Positions 50,689-58,470 of a DNA stretch of 64,000 nucleotides are shown piece after piece. The position numbers and the translations under genes are program-made. Positions within the stretch are counted from its first letter, which is position 1. Every line of letters begins with the position of its first letter. The stretch lies in contig NZ_FNXF01000019.1 in the NCBI RefSeq assembly GCF_900108485.1, positions 1-64,000 on the forward strand, read 5' to 3'. This DNA is from Rheinheimera pacifica. GTDB lineage: Bacteria; Pseudomonadota; Gammaproteobacteria; Enterobacterales; Alteromonadaceae. The notes below the pieces were generated by a model, which saw nothing but the letters and a program-made list of their open reading frames with translations, was not told the DNA's origin and ran no database searches.

Positions 50689-51261
50689 ATGTTAAAAAAA
50701 TTGTTTGCTGCTGGTTTATTACTTTTTATAACTGCTACAGCTAACGCCACACCAATTACACGTATTAACGGCTCTTTTGATGTGTTTGGTATTGGTCAGA
50801 CTACATTAAATGCAAACGGTGAAATTGCCCAAGTTGATTTTAGCCTTAACAGCACTTTATTTCCCGTTCTTGCTACTGGCGATTACTTAGATTACTTCAC
50901 TAGTGATTCTATTTTCAGCGTAAAAAACCCTTTAATTTTAAGTAATATTGTGGGCGTTGAACTTTGGACTGTAGAAGGATTTTCCTTTACAGGTACAAGC
51001 ATTCGTCAAAATAGTACACAAGGTGCTTCTACTGGCTTATACATTATCGGTAATGTTACACACGCTGATTTTATTACAACTGAGACTGAGTGGTTCTTTT
51101 CTACTCAAGGTTTAACAAACGATAGCGTTAATGTAAAAAGCTTCTCTTCAACAGTAACTTCTCCAGCTCCTGCGGTTACAGTTGCTGAACCAACTTCTTT
51201 AGCTATTTTCGCTTTAGGCTTAATGGGTTTTGCTGCTCGTCGTAAGAGAAAATCTGTTTAA
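50689..51261 (+). CDS. PEP-CTERM sorted exported protein
   Basis: 190 aa. Signal peptide (LFAAGLLLFITATANA), a middle region of beta strands with no known domain, and a PEP-CTERM tail: VAEPTSLAIFALGLMGFAARRKRKSV in pattern (motif AEPTS, hydrophobic helix, Arg cluster), here with Ala in place of the first Pro. Such proteins are cut by an exosortase and often belong to extracellular matrix or floc. AAGGA precedes the ATG. The gene is clearly more A+T-rich than its neighbours. No exosortase lies in this window, so the sorting enzyme must be elsewhere. Confidence 0.85.
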   Translation: MLKKLFAAGLLLFITATANATPITRINGSFDVFGIGQTTLNANGEIAQVDFSLNSTLFPVLATGDYLDYFTSDSIFSVKNPLILSNIVGVELWTVEGFSFTGTSIRQNSTQGASTGLYIIGNVTHADFITTETEWFFSTQGLTNDSVNVKSFSSTVTSPAPAVTVAEPTSLAIFALGLMGFAARRKRKSV

Positions 51262-53509: not shown

Positions 53510-56500
53510 TTATAAACTGTTTAAAAACGCCAGTAAGGCTGCTCTGTCTGTTGCTGACAGATTTTGGTAGTTCACCCGGCTTATTTCTGCCTCACCGCCG
53601 TGCCAGCGAATGGCTTCATCAATAGTGCGGGCGCGGCCATCGTGCAAATAGTTAGCGTCTGGTGTGCAGTATTCATGGCCATCCAAACCAAAGGCGTCCC
53701 AACCTACATTGCCGGCTACCCCACCGGTAACACAGGCGGATAACCCCAGGCCCCACAGTGGTGCAGTGCGCCACTCTGAACCGCCGGCCTCACCTTCGGC
53801 TAAATTATCCGCCAGGCCCGGCCCCATATCATGCAGCAGCAAGTCAGTGTACGGATAGATAGTCTGGTTACGTAACTCTGCCAGCGGGTGATATTCGCTG
53901 GTTTGAAAGCTCTCAATATGGCAACCGTTACAGCCGGTAGCATTGAAAACGGCTTTACCCTGTAGTACCTGCGGGTCGTTGTAATCACGCTGCGGCCGAA
54001 CCCCCAGCAATGAGATGTACTTCACCAGATTATCCAGATGCTGATCCGCCAGCGGTGCCCCACCGCCGCAGTTACTCTGGTTGGCACCGCAATCGGGCGT
54101 TGGGAGTATTGTAGTCATTACGCCCATATCGGCATTAAGCGCTGCTGCTACCTGATGTCTTACGCTGGCAGTTGCCGCTTTATAACCAAAGCGGCCTAAA
54201 CGCGCTTCACCGGTAACCGGGTCAATCACGCGATGGGCGCGGCCGGAAATGCCATCGCCGTTGGCATCATCAATATCTTCCAGCGCTAATATTGCCGCTT
54301 CAGGTATGGCCTCCAGCAAGCCGATGCCGTTTAACTGTGGCGCAATACGGGCCGAGAAAGTATCAGGCACGGTGCCGCTGAATTGGTAGTTGGCCGTGCG
54401 CAGGCCGTTACTTTCAGTAAACGAAGCAATAGATGGCATACTTTCATTGCTGCTGATGCCATTGCGCCGCGGCTGCAGTACCCGGCCTAATTCGGCATGT
54501 GATAAACCCTCAGCATTACCCACCCGAAATACCCATTTGTCCAGCGGCGTGCCAACAGCGCCAACCGGTGCCCGGCCATTACGCACATGGCAGCCGGAGC
54601 AGCGCTGGTTGATATAGTTCGAACCGGCTAACCCTGCCATGCCGGCAAAAATACCGTTTTCGGCGTTTTCGTCATGGCTGCCATCAACAAAAGAGGTGTG
54701 GTGCAAACGCCGCCCCAGTACAAAAGGCTGACCATTGTCATAACCTAAATTGGTGGCCATTTGCTGAAAATGACCGTCTGGCTCGGCGGTCATTTGTACA
54801 TGCAAGGTGGTGTCGCCGCCTAAACGGGCGCTGGCAGGCAGCGGCACAGAGTCACGCTGTAAATAGCGGCCGGGCTGAAAAATCTCTTTGTCGGTAACAT
54901 CCCACGGCACTATGCCCTGGCCGACAATATATAAAAAGGTGGTGCCGTAATAGTTAGCCCGGCCACGCGGCAACGTGGACCCATCGAGAAACTGGCTGAC
55001 TTCAAACTCCAGCTTATCGCCGACCTGAATTGGCCGGCCTTCGCGGCAGTTGTAGCTTTCTTCTTTCCAGTAATGGGTGTTGTCTACCATGTTCATAACA
55101 CCATTACCGCAAAACTCGGCCAGCGTATTCATACCGATATACCACCAGCGATTTTCTGCTTCGGTATCATGCAGTTTATTCTGCGTCACCACATTCATCC
55201 GAATACTGCTGCCGCCTTTGGCAACGTAATCGACTATTTCAATGGCAGCAGTTCTGTCTTCCCAGTAAAACGTCAGGTAATGATCATAAGCCTGAAAATG
55301 GTTTTCTTTGGCATGTCTGTCGCGGGCGCGATCAGAAAAACGGGTAACCAGCGCATCGCCGCGATCATACTGAATAGCGCTTTCCAGCGCTGTCGCGGCA
55401 TTATACAGCGGCACTACATTCAGTGCTGTCAGCGGGCAGCCATTAGCATTGACCGGCGTACCGGCCGGTGTGCCGGGGCAGTTATCCAGCGCATCAGGCA
55501 CACCGTCGCCGTCACTGTCCTGGCCCGGATCTGGGTTCGTCCCGCCCGGATCCGGGTTACTACCACCGCCATTACCACTCAAGGTAAAACTTTGCTCGGC
55601 CGTATCAATGGCATAGCCATTTGCTGTATCCCAGTAGGTAAAAAAGTATGTCAGCACAGTGCCGGGTGCTAAACCCGACACCTGATAGCTGTTTACTCCA
55701 CTTGCCTGTTGCATGGCGACATTAATCTGGCCGCCGTTATTTACGCGGTGATGCACATCCGCCCAGCCTGTACTGTTAACAAAAAACCGCACACTGTCAG
55801 CACCGGTTTGCGCTACACCAAAAGCCCCGGCAGCTACCGGGCAACCGTTAGCGTTTACTACTGTGCCGCTGGCAGTATTAGCGCATTGGTCCAGGTTGTC
55901 AGGTACACCATCACCATCGCTGTCGGCCAATGCTGTGCCACCGCCGCCTTGCCAGACAATATCATCAATGGCAAATTCAAAGCTGCTGCCGGGTAACTGG
56001 CCATCGATACTGGCAATATAAAACATGCCGGTTAACGCCTGCAGCGCAATTAGCTCGCCACGTAAATCGGCTACCGGAATACTGACTTCGCCCCACTCAC
56101 CGTTGCGTACCAAACCATAGCGGCTTTGATTGGCAGGGAAATTCAGCCAGTTTTCATTAGTGTAGGAGTCGGCAATGCCAATTTTAAAGCCCACATTAGC
56201 CGGAATTTTGATACTGAACGTCATATTGCCGCTGGCAAAGTTGCTCATATCGCGTACCTGACGGGTTTGAATGCCGCCACCAAACCATTGCCCCGGGCTG
56301 ATATAGTTCCAGGCAATCACATTACCGCCTTCCAGTGGTGCAGTGTTGCCCGCCACTACCGATGCCTGATTCCAGATATAAATATCCGAGCTGACGCCAG
56401 CCTGCAGTTGGTTAGTTGTCGGGGTGGTATCAGTAAAAACGCCAAAGCTCCCCGTTTCCGGTGGGTTAACATTGCCGCTAAATACCTGCCCCATACCGTT

Positions 56501-57445
56501 TAACTGGTACACCCGCACATAATCGATATACATTTTGGCCGGCAAGGGTGCGCTAACCTGAGCATTCGTTGCGGCGTCGGTAAAATTGCCGCCTACCGCC
56601 ATATTAAACAGCAGGTAGAAAGGTTGTTGTAGTTCACTGGATTCTTCGGTAATGCTGATCGGCGCATCGTACATATCGTACTCAACGCCGTTATCTATGA
56701 CAGTGAAACGCAGCTGGCTGTCTGTCCAGTAAGTGCGGTAAGTTACAAAGCGGTTGCTCAGTGGCTGGGCCGCTACATAGGCGTTGTCGGTTTGCCAGGC
56801 CGTCATGGCGGCACAGGTTGGGTTTTCAGGTACGCAAGCCGCATCAGCGTAAAAAATCGCATTAGCACCTACATAGCTGTTGATATCGGCACCGGGGTGG
56901 CCGGCCTCAGCCCTGCCCTGAGCACTGTGGCCCATTTCCATCATGTCAATTTCGCCCTTGGCCGGCCAACTGGCGGTACTGGTGCCCAACATCCAGGCGG
57001 CAGGCCATAAGCCGGTGGCCAGATCCGGCACCCGCACACGCACCTCTATCATGCCGTACTGCACGGCCAGTTTTTGCTCACTGTCAATTTTGCCAGAACT
57101 AAAAGCGCGGCCGCCTATAGCGTCGTTACGCGCCTGCAACACCAGCGCTTTATTACCCGGCTCGCCCGGTACATCTTCAATGCTCAGATTGTCTGCGCTA
57201 TACCACTGCAGTTCCTGGTTGCCCCAGCCACATAAACCGACCTGGCAGCCATCGCCTTCAATTTCATTCCATGTGGCCGTATTAAAGGTGTTGAAGTTGT
57301 CCTCAAACAACAGGTTACCAATAACAGGGTTAGTAACATCTGCCAGTGCCGTGTGCGGCGCACCAAGGCAACAAAGTGCCAGTAAAGTGGAAAAAGACGG
57401 CCATAGCGTGTAGCGCTGTGCCGGAGTGTTTTTACTATTTTTCAT
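53510..57445 (-). CDS. GH16 beta-glucanase - CBM - TSP3 - CBM56 - di-haem oxidoreductase fusion
   Basis: 1311 aa from the ATG at 57445. Signal peptide to about Ala36. GH16 domain about 40-315, with catalytic EIDMME (Glu165, Glu170), as in laminarinases. Domain about 320-500 resembles a carbohydrate-binding jelly roll (IDDIVWQGG end). TSP3 Ca-binding repeat DSDGDGVPDNLDQC (about 508), then a CBM56-like beta-1,3-glucan module (TGWADVHHRVNNGG; TYFFTYWDTANG), a Pro/Gly linker, and a second TSP3 repeat (DSDGDGVPDALDNC). From about 690 to the end it is a di-haem oxidoreductase (DHOR), with haem sites CSGCH (949-953) and CNGCH (1172-1176), GSEWRTAPLWGLG and YLHDGRARTIDEAI. All are in one uninterrupted frame. 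A LacI-like palindrome lies over the likely promoter. Function of the fusion is unknown. Confidence 0.93.
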   Translation of the reverse strand: MKNSKNTPAQRYTLWPSFSTLLALCCLGAPHTALADVTNPVIGNLLFEDNFNTFNTATWNEIEGDGCQVGLCGWGNQELQWYSADNLSIEDVPGEPGNKALVLQARNDAIGGRAFSSGKIDSEQKLAVQYGMIEVRVRVPDLATGLWPAAWMLGTSTASWPAKGEIDMMEMGHSAQGRAEAGHPGADINSYVGANAIFYADAACVPENPTCAAMTAWQTDNAYVAAQPLSNRFVTYRTYWTDSQLRFTVIDNGVEYDMYDAPISITEESSELQQPFYLLFNMAVGGNFTDAATNAQVSAPLPAKMYIDYVRVYQLNGMGQVFSGNVNPPETGSFGVFTDTTPTTNQLQAGVSSDIYIWNQASVVAGNTAPLEGGNVIAWNYISPGQWFGGGIQTRQVRDMSNFASGNMTFSIKIPANVGFKIGIADSYTNENWLNFPANQSRYGLVRNGEWGEVSIPVADLRGELIALQALTGMFYIASIDGQLPGSSFEFAIDDIVWQGGGGTALADSDGDGVPDNLDQCANTASGTVVNANGCPVAAGAFGVAQTGADSVRFFVNSTGWADVHHRVNNGGQINVAMQQASGVNSYQVSGLAPGTVLTYFFTYWDTANGYAIDTAEQSFTLSGNGGGSNPDPGGTNPDPGQDSDGDGVPDALDNCPGTPAGTPVNANGCPLTALNVVPLYNAATALESAIQYDRGDALVTRFSDRARDRHAKENHFQAYDHYLTFYWEDRTAAIEIVDYVAKGGSSIRMNVVTQNKLHDTEAENRWWYIGMNTLAEFCGNGVMNMVDNTHYWKEESYNCREGRPIQVGDKLEFEVSQFLDGSTLPRGRANYYGTTFLYIVGQGIVPWDVTDKEIFQPGRYLQRDSVPLPASARLGGDTTLHVQMTAEPDGHFQQMATNLGYDNGQPFVLGRRLHHTSFVDGSHDENAENGIFAGMAGLAGSNYINQRCSGCHVRNGRAPVGAVGTPLDKWVFRVGNAEGLSHAELGRVLQPRRNGISSNESMPSIASFTESNGLRTANYQFSGTVPDTFSARIAPQLNGIGLLEAIPEAAILALEDIDDANGDGISGRAHRVIDPVTGEARLGRFGYKAATASVRHQVAAALNADMGVMTTILPTPDCGANQSNCGGGAPLADQHLDNLVKYISLLGVRPQRDYNDPQVLQGKAVFNATGCNGCHIESFQTSEYHPLAELRNQTIYPYTDLLLHDMGPGLADNLAEGEAGGSEWRTAPLWGLGLSACVTGGVAGNVGWDAFGLDGHEYCTPDANYLHDGRARTIDEAIRWHGGEAEISRVNYQNLSATDRAALLAFLNSL

Positions 57446-57831: not shown

Positions 57832-58470
57832 TTACTGCTGCCTGGCCAACTGATTGGCAAAATCATGGTTGACATCACGGTGCCCGGCTTCATCTGCCCG
57901 CACGGCAATAACCACGTCACGCAGCCGGGCATCAGCCGGTAATTGCCAGTACTCTATTGCCACTTGCGGCGCGGCAATATTCTCTATAGCACCGCTTTCT
58001 ATCTCGGCCAGATAACAGCTGTAACTGTATACTGCCTCTTCTTCAAAATAGCCCACCAGGCGGTGTGCGGTTTTTGCCGACACCATATACAGCACTAAAA
58101 AGCCGGTAAAAAACAGGCCCTGCGCTAACAGGATCAGCATGCGCTCAAACCAATTCGGTTTGGCAATTTCAATAAAGGTCATAAGGTGCATGCGCTCGTT
58201 CTCTGCTTCGTCCAGCAACACCCTGATCCAGCCATGATCATCTTCCATCCGGCGCAAACTGCGCATATGCCGTAACATCCCGGCCACCATGCCCGGCACG
58301 CCTGCTACGGTTTCCAGAATAACGGCGCGATGGCCATAACGTTTGGCAAAGAAGGTGTCGGCACAAAAGCGCAGCATTTTGGTTAAGCGAAAGGCGATAC
58401 GATCAGATAAATTCTGTGGTTTATGGTGTGCGGCTAAAGGATCAGACGGGTTAAGCTGGTCTTCAGACAT
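57832..58470 (-). CDS. aox: alternative oxidase (AOX)
   Basis: Di-iron quinol oxidase that passes electrons to oxygen without pumping protons, and is cyanide- and NO-resistant. 212 aa, short like other bacterial AOX. Iron ligands appear in order: Glu53 (ETVAGVPG), Glu92 and His95 ([10 protein letters not shown]), Glu144 (FEEEAVYSY), Glu194 and His197 ([12 protein letters not shown]). Two hydrophobic segments allow membrane attachment. CAGGAG precedes the ATG. No NO-sensing regulator is seen nearby. Divergence in orientation from the downstream genes is not seen; it is tandem with the GH16 gene after 386 bases. Confidence 0.92.

Follow-up and report, generated by a model that had tools for sequence, protein, structure and literature searches.

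The window, a 64,000-nucleotide stretch of Rheinheimera pacifica DNA, carries on its minus strand a single open frame that starts with ATG at 57445, stops at 53510, and has genes for a TetR-like regulator and an alternative oxidase as its neighbours. From the N terminus, the encoded protein comprises a signal peptide, a GH16 laminarinase domain, a conserved domain, a TSP3 motif, a CBM56 module, a second TSP3 motif, and a C-terminal di-haem oxidoreductase (DHOR, PF06537), with the following elements:

53510..57445, minus strand: GH16-CBM56-DHOR fusion gene, 1311 aa plus stop
57341..57445, minus strand: Sec-type signal peptide, aa 1-35 (judged by eye), with cleavage likely behind ALA
56498..57316, minus strand: GH16 laminarinase domain, aa 44-316 (Pfam and PDB matches)
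56936..56953, minus strand: GH16 catalytic motif EIDMME, aa 165-170
55937..56473, minus strand: conserved domain, aa 325-503, without Pfam or PDB match
55883..55924, minus strand: TSP3 calcium-binding motif 1, aa 508-521 (Pfam)
55601..55819, minus strand: CBM56 module, aa 543-615 (Pfam)
55478..55519, minus strand: TSP3 calcium-binding motif 2, aa 643-656 (Pfam)
54611..55393, minus strand: N-terminal extension of the DHOR, aa 685-945 (alignment, model)
53513..54610, minus strand: di-haem DHOR core (PF06537), aa 946-1311 (Pfam, model)
54587..54601, minus strand: predicted haem c site 1, CSGCH, aa 949-953 (sequence motif)
53918..53932, minus strand: predicted haem c site 2, CNGCH, aa 1172-1176 (sequence motif)
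53822..53833, minus strand: HDMG, aa 1205-1208 (alignment), of which Met1207 is a possible axial ligand

The Pfam scores clearly exceed their cut-offs for the DHOR (217.8 bits against 22, with two CxxCH motifs) and CBM_56 (75.5 against 27), and also pass for TSP_3 (30.3 against 25, in two stretches) and Glyco_hydro_16 (28.4 against 22). The catalytic motif of GH16 enzymes is E-x-D-x-x-E, and its form here, EIDMME, is the same in 9/9 same-genus genes compared; the GH16 part also matches solved laminarinases (8xph, E 4.6e-29). The GH16 catalytic motif described as intact in the initial annotation is borne out, as are the two calcium-binding TSP3 motifs, which start at aa 508 and 643. The GH16 domain is predicted to cut beta-1,3-glucan, a polymer of algae and fungi, of the laminarin, curdlan or callose type, and the CBM56 likely ties the protein to such a polymer. 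Of the proposed glucan-binding modules, CBM56 is upheld, but the supposed jelly-roll at aa 325-503 is at most a candidate: this domain, which travels with this GH16 type, has no Pfam match at E<=1, and its best sequence match in the PDB does not go below E 0.22.

The joining of GH16 and DHOR in one secreted protein is a genuine pairing that recurs in other bacteria. The gene is found at full length, with no stop codon inside it, in 8/25 Rheinheimera genomes including the window's own, with the other seven copies at 80-95% identity to the window gene, and GH16-DHOR fusions are present in other families. Because intact genes are found in further genomes, an assembly join is ruled out, and no sign of one was seen within the gene; for the rival that the frame arose by such a join or by chance in-frame neighbourhood, we found no supporting point and regard it as extremely improbable. 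The claim that both parts share one frame accordingly holds, and the two are not confined to separate genes elsewhere.

Fusions of a glycoside hydrolase with a DHOR are already in print, with GH16 in Lam16A and with GH26 in Xyn65. Lam16A (Sde_1393) of Saccharophagus degradans ends in a COG3488 region, which we take to correspond to PF06537. The protein was tabulated in 2008 with GH16, two CBM6, four TSP3 and this C-terminal 'thiol-oxidoreductase like' part (PMC2386152), and CBM56 is also listed for it (PMC3124978); in the relevant passages of both papers, the COG3488 part is not put to any test. Compared by published table, the order GH16, CBM, TSP3 and C-terminal DHOR is the same as in the window protein, but Lam16A has 1707 aa and CBM6 modules, as against 1311 aa and CBM56 only. 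Xyn65 of Gilvimarinus xylanilyticus (2022; GH26-CBM31-CBM6-Big-DHOR) has been assayed for 1,3-xylanase activity, with the role of its DHOR left open in the parts of the paper covered, and made up 82.3% of the 1,3-xylanase spectra in the culture secretome (PMC9638140). It shares with the window protein secretion, CBMs, a DHOR at the C terminus and a hydrolase type directed at beta-1,3-linked polymers, but its hydrolase is a GH26 1,3-xylanase rather than GH16. In the literature covered here, we saw no experiment on the DHOR half of a hydrolase fusion. The initial statement that no characterised enzyme is known to tie glucan hydrolysis to a DHOR has to be qualified in the light of Lam16A and Xyn65.

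The initial annotation also spoke of a complete di-haem oxidoreductase. Both motifs, CSGCH and CNGCH, are indeed intact and predict two covalent haem c sites, and the genome carries a TIGR00353 cytochrome c maturation gene (nrfE/ccmF type), which is no proof of haem attachment. However, this is not an ordinary DHOR: a conserved stretch of 264 (~265) aa lies ahead of haem 1, compared with 88-121 residues, leader included, in four ordinary DHORs, and the best PF06537 stretch of the protein covers profile positions 213-499 of 499. We term this extended form extDHOR, and expect the DHOR parts of Lam16A and Xyn65 to have the extension too. Ordinary DHORs (PF06537, DUF1111) of imelysin operons share the haem core, many invariant residues and HDMG, but are mostly ~430-590 aa long; the extension is absent from the 14 rows aligned, with no extension residue aligning to their cores. 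Imelysin contexts of DHOR are illustrated in PMC3143127, and imelysin-like genes neighboured the ordinary DHOR at 6/6 loci inspected by eye, one of them Pfam-confirmed. The window gene is unlike these in both its extension and its neighbours. The adjoining alternative oxidase was considered as a partner and rejected: it adjoins the gene at four loci (L026, L027, L034, L039) but not at three others (L025, L028, L037).

Conservation of the module bears on the rival in which the DHOR now lacks redox function and serves only in glycan binding or protein stabilization, one option offered by the authors of Xyn65 (PMC9638140). Consistent with that option, when Xyn65 was produced in E. coli with the signal peptide removed, and hence probably lacked haem, its activity on xylan came close to that of the DHOR-free Xyn80 (76.9 versus 91.9 U/umol; PMC9638140). 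Against it, two CxxCH motifs occur in 80/80 extDHOR domains from several phyla, the position of Met1207 is Met in 86/88 rows (Leu in two), 16 polar residues of the extension are invariant in 88/88 extended rows (invariant positions here include R708, R710, H711, Y727, Y832, Y833, H916, H924 and E926), and dN/dS of 0.03-0.06 in the extension indicates that extDHOR is under strong purifying selection. Loss of redox function therefore appears very unlikely.

The structure model was poor with 21 sequences (pLDDT 61) and reached 93.7 with 102. In a fold search against the PDB, hydrazine synthase was the sole match to pass E<=0.001 (5c2v_C, E 3.1e-5, TM 0.16/0.31), and it does not tell the activity of extDHOR. 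The rubber oxygenase RoxA, which is secreted, has two haems and cleaves its polymer as a dioxygenase (PMC6797691), offers a precedent for chemistry only and is not among the 50 Foldseek matches listed. Around haem 2 and the C terminus, DHOR shows a weak likeness to bCcP, MauG and BthA, and to the gamma subunit of hydrazine synthase. This likeness (3o5c E 0.049; 1iqc E 0.3; 5c2v E 0.012; a YxHDG...T motif), together with the naming of PF06537 as a putative peroxidase, would suit a DHOR that clears H2O2 where the protein sits on algae or glucan, and so protects the hydrolase or the cell during digestion. Yet the distal Q-x3-P-x5-E found in MauG, with its Glu113, and in BthA (PMC6405878) is present in 0/88 extDHOR and 0/14 ordinary DHOR rows, and CCP_MauG is not among the seven Pfam matches of the window protein at E<=1. 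Q991 and E1001, spaced 10 apart as in MauG, were considered as a distal pair; the idea was dropped because the spacing varies from 7 to 17 over 88 rows (10 in 32/88), with the full motif in none. General detoxification, moreover, does not need repeated pairing with beta-1,3-glucan modules, and no electron donor outside the cell is known to us in this setting. We consider a peroxidase role unlikely, though far from negligible.

That pairing was followed through the 80 best extDHOR relatives, a sample in which the fused share is biased upward because the loci were picked by likeness to an alignment whose lead sequence is the fused window protein. GH16 is fused in 19, encoded unfused in the fetched flanks of 15 more (in 9/15 of these, downstream by no more than 330 bp and on the same strand), and neither fused nor flanking in 46; such association was seen at 0/27 control loci with an ordinary DHOR. 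Three GH16 types occur with extDHOR, two loci (L087 and L090) carry GH3 fusions, and nine changes between fused and unfused states are needed on the tree. A two-gene pair ~143 bp apart in one genome (G765) is one fused gene in another of the same genus (G670), and a Microbulbifer locus encodes on one strand a TonB barrel, SapC, Cupin_8, Trp halogenase, extDHOR, GH16, GH3 and GH16. No PF00722 match was found in 6/21 extDHOR genomes searched, and extDHOR may also work alone, because three genomes (G025, G051, G194) carry CBM56-CBM56-extDHOR without any GH16 match.

A further rival holds that the DHOR is an electron relay, which either supplies a second redox enzyme outside the cell, for example an LPMO, or carries electrons from the polymer to an acceptor. 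The CjX183 cytochrome domain of the CBM2-bearing Cbp2D does reduce AA10 LPMOs (PMC8981238), whereas X183 domains from Teredinibacter failed to drive LPMO activity in the conditions used (PMC10916295). Cytochromes of the Cbp2D/Cbp2E type (X158, X183, X132) resemble the window protein as CBM-bearing c-type proteins of polysaccharide degraders, but consist of single-CXXCH domains of other families, and the relevant passages mention no DHOR (PMC8981238, PMC12542752). Among 19 same-genus genomes (G000-G018), AA10 occurs in 7/7 fusion holders versus 3/12 others (Fisher p 0.003, confounded by relatedness); in the order sample, it occurs in 9/21 extDHOR holders versus 97/373 others (Fisher p 0.13). 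AA10 as a general or obligatory partner is thus unsupported in the order sample, although the two co-occur within the genus. Furthermore, the GH16-fused genomes G196 and G040 show no AA10, and the AA10 gene of the window genome sits on another contig. Of the roles put forward in the initial annotation (sugar oxidation, electron delivery and peroxide removal), delivery to an AA10 LPMO as a rule is weakened by these counts. We judge a relay in general unlikely, though not negligible.

We instead favour, with more doubt than confidence, a secreted two-enzyme protein acting on beta-1,3-glucan, in which GH16 would cut the polymer, CBM56 would hold the protein on it, and the anchored extDHOR would perhaps oxidize the bound glycan. 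Here, extDHOR would be an independent catalytic accessory performing redox chemistry at the same surface, as LPMOs do beside hydrolases: (i) haem 1, roofed by the extension, may activate O2 or H2O2 and oxidize the bound glycan or its groups, and (ii) haem 2 may pass electrons. A doubtful but serious possibility is that extDHOR represents a haem-based auxiliary activity not recognized until now, which would oxidize or cleave glycans with beta-1,3 links (laminarin, curdlan, callose or 1,3-xylan) as the di-haem equivalent of an LPMO; it would be carried by CBMs, with repeated fusion to hydrolases of families GH16, GH3 and, in published work, GH26. For the favoured reading as a whole, we counted the GH16/GH3 fusions and flanks, the nine changes on the tree, the G765/G670 pair, the Microbulbifer locus, the invariant extension residues and their low dN/dS, the CxxCH pair in 80/80 domains, the three CBM56-CBM56-extDHOR genomes, and the Xyn65 share of secretome spectra; against it, the upward bias in the fused share, the 46/80 relatives without fused or nearby GH16, the 6/21 genomes with no PF00722 match, the uninformative fold match, the need for an electron source outside the cell, and the activity of Xyn65 probably without haem.

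How oxidative enzymes assist hydrolases has been studied in depth on cellulose and chitin; for beta-1,3-glucans, no bacterial redox partner of this sort is known to us. With a haem module fused to or beside GH16 and GH3, and in print to a GH26 1,3-xylanase, such a partner becomes directly testable, and convenient material for this exists in the Rheinheimera protein, which is fairly small, and in the G765/G670 pair.

The predicted fusion of a GH16 domain to a di-haem oxidoreductase (DHOR, PF06537) was borne out by a single 1311-aa open frame at 53510-57445 (-), starting from the ATG at 57445, which retains the catalytic EIDMME and both haem motifs, as the initial annotation had claimed. The window protein has the following features:

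N-terminus, signal peptide (read by eye)
aa 44-316, GH16
aa 325-503, conserved domain with no family assignment
two TSP3, flanking CBM56
aa 543-615, CBM56
aa 685-948, extension of ~265 aa before the haem core
C-terminus up to aa 1311, DHOR haem core

GH16 is known for hydrolysis, CBM56 for beta-1,3-glucan binding and the DHOR family for c-type haem sites. Secretion and haem attachment of the window protein are plausible, since its genome encodes a type II secretin and has a gene for cytochrome c maturation.

The extension separates two kinds of DHOR. Among 394 genomes of the order (112 with a match at E≤1e-30), matches to short proteins, mostly about 430-590 aa, were restricted to the haem core, and those to longer proteins included the extension; two proteins of 771-781 aa (in G099 and G174) had core-only matches. 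By manual count, the extended kind (extDHOR) occurs in 21 of the 394 genomes, including G372 (partial match at a contig end) and G040 (two pieces). The class sample gave whole-profile matches in just 3 of 369 genomes (G765, G670 and the window's own, G000), and the extended kind is therefore uncommon. Six inspected short-DHOR loci have imelysin-like neighbours, Pfam-confirmed for two neighbours at one locus; at L058:4921-8117, two adjoining DHOR-like genes (581 and 483 aa) apparently lie inside one imelysin operon, as judged by eye.

The window extDHOR was modeled confidently from 102 sequences (pLDDT 93.7, pTM 0.94), with a predicted beta-rich extension. The sole PDB match at E≤0.001 was hydrazine synthase (5c2v_C, E 3.1e-5), which superposed poorly; CcpA followed (3hq9, E 0.13). 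Sixteen polar extension residues are invariant in 88/88 extended rows (the window protein, 71 of 80 named loci and 16 others). When the window gene was compared pairwise with L006, L007 and L008, dN/dS was 0.03-0.07 in GH16, 0.11-0.13 in the 325-503 domain, 0.08-0.14 in TSP3-CBM56, 0.03-0.06 in the extension and 0.06-0.10 in the haem core; the estimates are rough where dS exceeds 1, as it does several times. Alongside these observations of domain order, conservation and genomic association, we infer that haem 1, beneath the extension, would be the catalytic site, at which extDHOR may oxidize glycan. Alternatively, extDHOR could act as a peroxidase; the distal motif of bCcP/MauG occurs in 0/88 extended rows, which weakens the case for a standard peroxidase but is compatible with a different peroxidatic site.

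Genome contigs were scanned with an alignment headed by the window protein, confirming at least 471 relatives, of which the best 80 were kept; ordering by likeness to the window protein favors fused forms in this set. These 80 are mostly Gammaproteobacteria, but the labels Myxococcales, Planctomycetota, Verrucomicrobiia and Fibrobacteres also occur; many are MAGs, and all 80 carry two CxxCH motifs. Seed searches of the 80 identified 19 GH16 fusions (five from Rheinheimera), 15 unfused relatives with a GH16 gene in the flanks, which reached at most 6 kb on either side and in some cases less (in nine of the 15 the gene has the same orientation and lies no more than 330 bp downstream), and 46 with neither, two of them lacking a recognized anchor frame. 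Neighboring GH16 genes need not all be laminarinases, as the family also includes agarases and carrageenases. The 689 kb of flank held 18 GH16 genes versus <1 expected from PF00722 density (49 matches in roughly 92 Mb of 21 extDHOR genomes, namely G765, G670 and the 19 order holders other than G040 and G372), an excess that is indicative only because the two genome sets largely differ. Ordinary-DHOR controls gave no GH16 match in 27 loci (196 kb in total, flanks mostly shorter).

Pfam, applied to proteins or N-termini of 17 of the 80 relatives, confirmed GH16 in L063, L082, L099 and L116; for L065 it lists SKN1_KRE6_Sbg1 and not PF00722, so that GH16 call comes from the seed search. At least two of the 80, both among these 17, are GH3-CBM6-Lipoprotein_15-extDHOR frames (L087:1546-7881 and L090:1-7881; 2112 and 2627 aa), which by domain assignment adds GH3 to the hydrolase families fused with the extDHOR module. 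Lipoprotein_15 (PF03640) was found in 9/17 (L103, L111, L117, L083, L082, L065, L087, L090 and L101). This secreted repeat, absent from the window protein, directly precedes extDHOR in many relatives, among them L040, L045, L046 (as L082) and L065, and is a possible redox or metal partner.

GH16 is probably not a fixed partner: PF00722 was not found in 6 of the 21 extDHOR genomes searched with it (G025, G051, G194, G287, G038 and G064), although some divergent GH16 domains, such as that of L065, escape this profile. G025, G051 and G194 encode CBM56-CBM56-extDHOR, which suggests that the module has its own work on beta-1,3-glucan. Genes for AA10 LPMO, a candidate redox partner, occur in 9/21 order extDHOR holders versus 97/373 other genomes (p 0.13).

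The search for this domain order across genomes, proposed in the initial annotation, revealed that the fusion recurs. Stop-free full-length matches were obtained in 8 of the 25 Rheinheimera genomes (G000, G002, G007, G013, G014, G015, G017 and G024) in a first survey of 41, in G362 beyond that survey, and the fusion was also found outside the genus. A quick 90-row tree (LG+G4, SH-aLRT only, G040 left out) requires nine fused/unfused changes, with at least seven forced by starred branches for the unfused label, gain and loss being indistinguishable. The Rheinheimera rows adjoin Exilibacterium L125 (Cellvibrionaceae), where a GH16 gene lies 14 bp downstream of the extDHOR gene; this placement suggests horizontal transfer. 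G765 has two separate genes, GH16-CBM6-CBM56-F5/8C and, about 143 bp downstream of it, CBM56-F5/8C-extDHOR, and both domain sets form one 1628-aa frame in the congeneric G670; G788, of the same genus, has a 1102-aa frame resembling that of G765, and 18 of 21 genomes searched in this family gave no such match. Microbulbifer L079 encodes, in order, a TonB barrel, SapC, Cupin_8, Trp halogenase, extDHOR, GH16, GH3 and a final GH16 assigned by seed search.

Glycoside hydrolase-DHOR proteins are already known from annotation, given two published examples. Saccharophagus Lam16A is tabulated as GH16/CBM6/CBM6/TSP3x4/COG3488 (PMC2386152), with CBM56 included in PMC3124978; the window protein comparably combines GH16, TSP3, CBM56 and DHOR. 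Gilvimarinus Xyn65 is GH26-CBM31-CBM6-Big-DHOR, whereas the window hydrolase is GH16. Of the four 1,3-xylanases secreted on 1,3-xylan, Xyn65 was the most abundant, and it cut this substrate when produced in E. coli BL21 with the signal peptide removed; its authors describe DHOR as previously not found in glycoside hydrolases and leave its role open (PMC9638140). The earlier statement that no such enzyme had been characterized must be qualified: Xyn65 was assayed as a 1,3-xylanase and Lam16A was already annotated; the literature searched gave no test of redox activity. The same search found no account of extDHOR as a family, of recurrent GH16 fusion or of GH3 fusions.

Among neighboring genes, a bacterial alternative oxidase (AOX; 57832-58470 (-), Pfam 291.6 bits) is encoded immediately upstream of the fusion, and adjoins it in some, not all, orthologous loci. 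In three relatives the next gene in the same orientation after the fusion encodes a PepSY-associated membrane protein, at L039:3643-5193 (assigned by Pfam), L034:6369-7919 and L026:12431-13981 (both by likeness); a TetR-like gene occupies this position in the window. A small secreted protein at 50689-51261 (+) has a C-terminus resembling, by eye, a PEP-CTERM sorting signal. The window genome also encodes a second extDHOR (G000:C23:157396-158967; L023:5987-8971), a 994-aa F5/8C-DHOR protein that has, by eye, a lipoprotein-like leader and belongs to a distant clade whose extension is longer.
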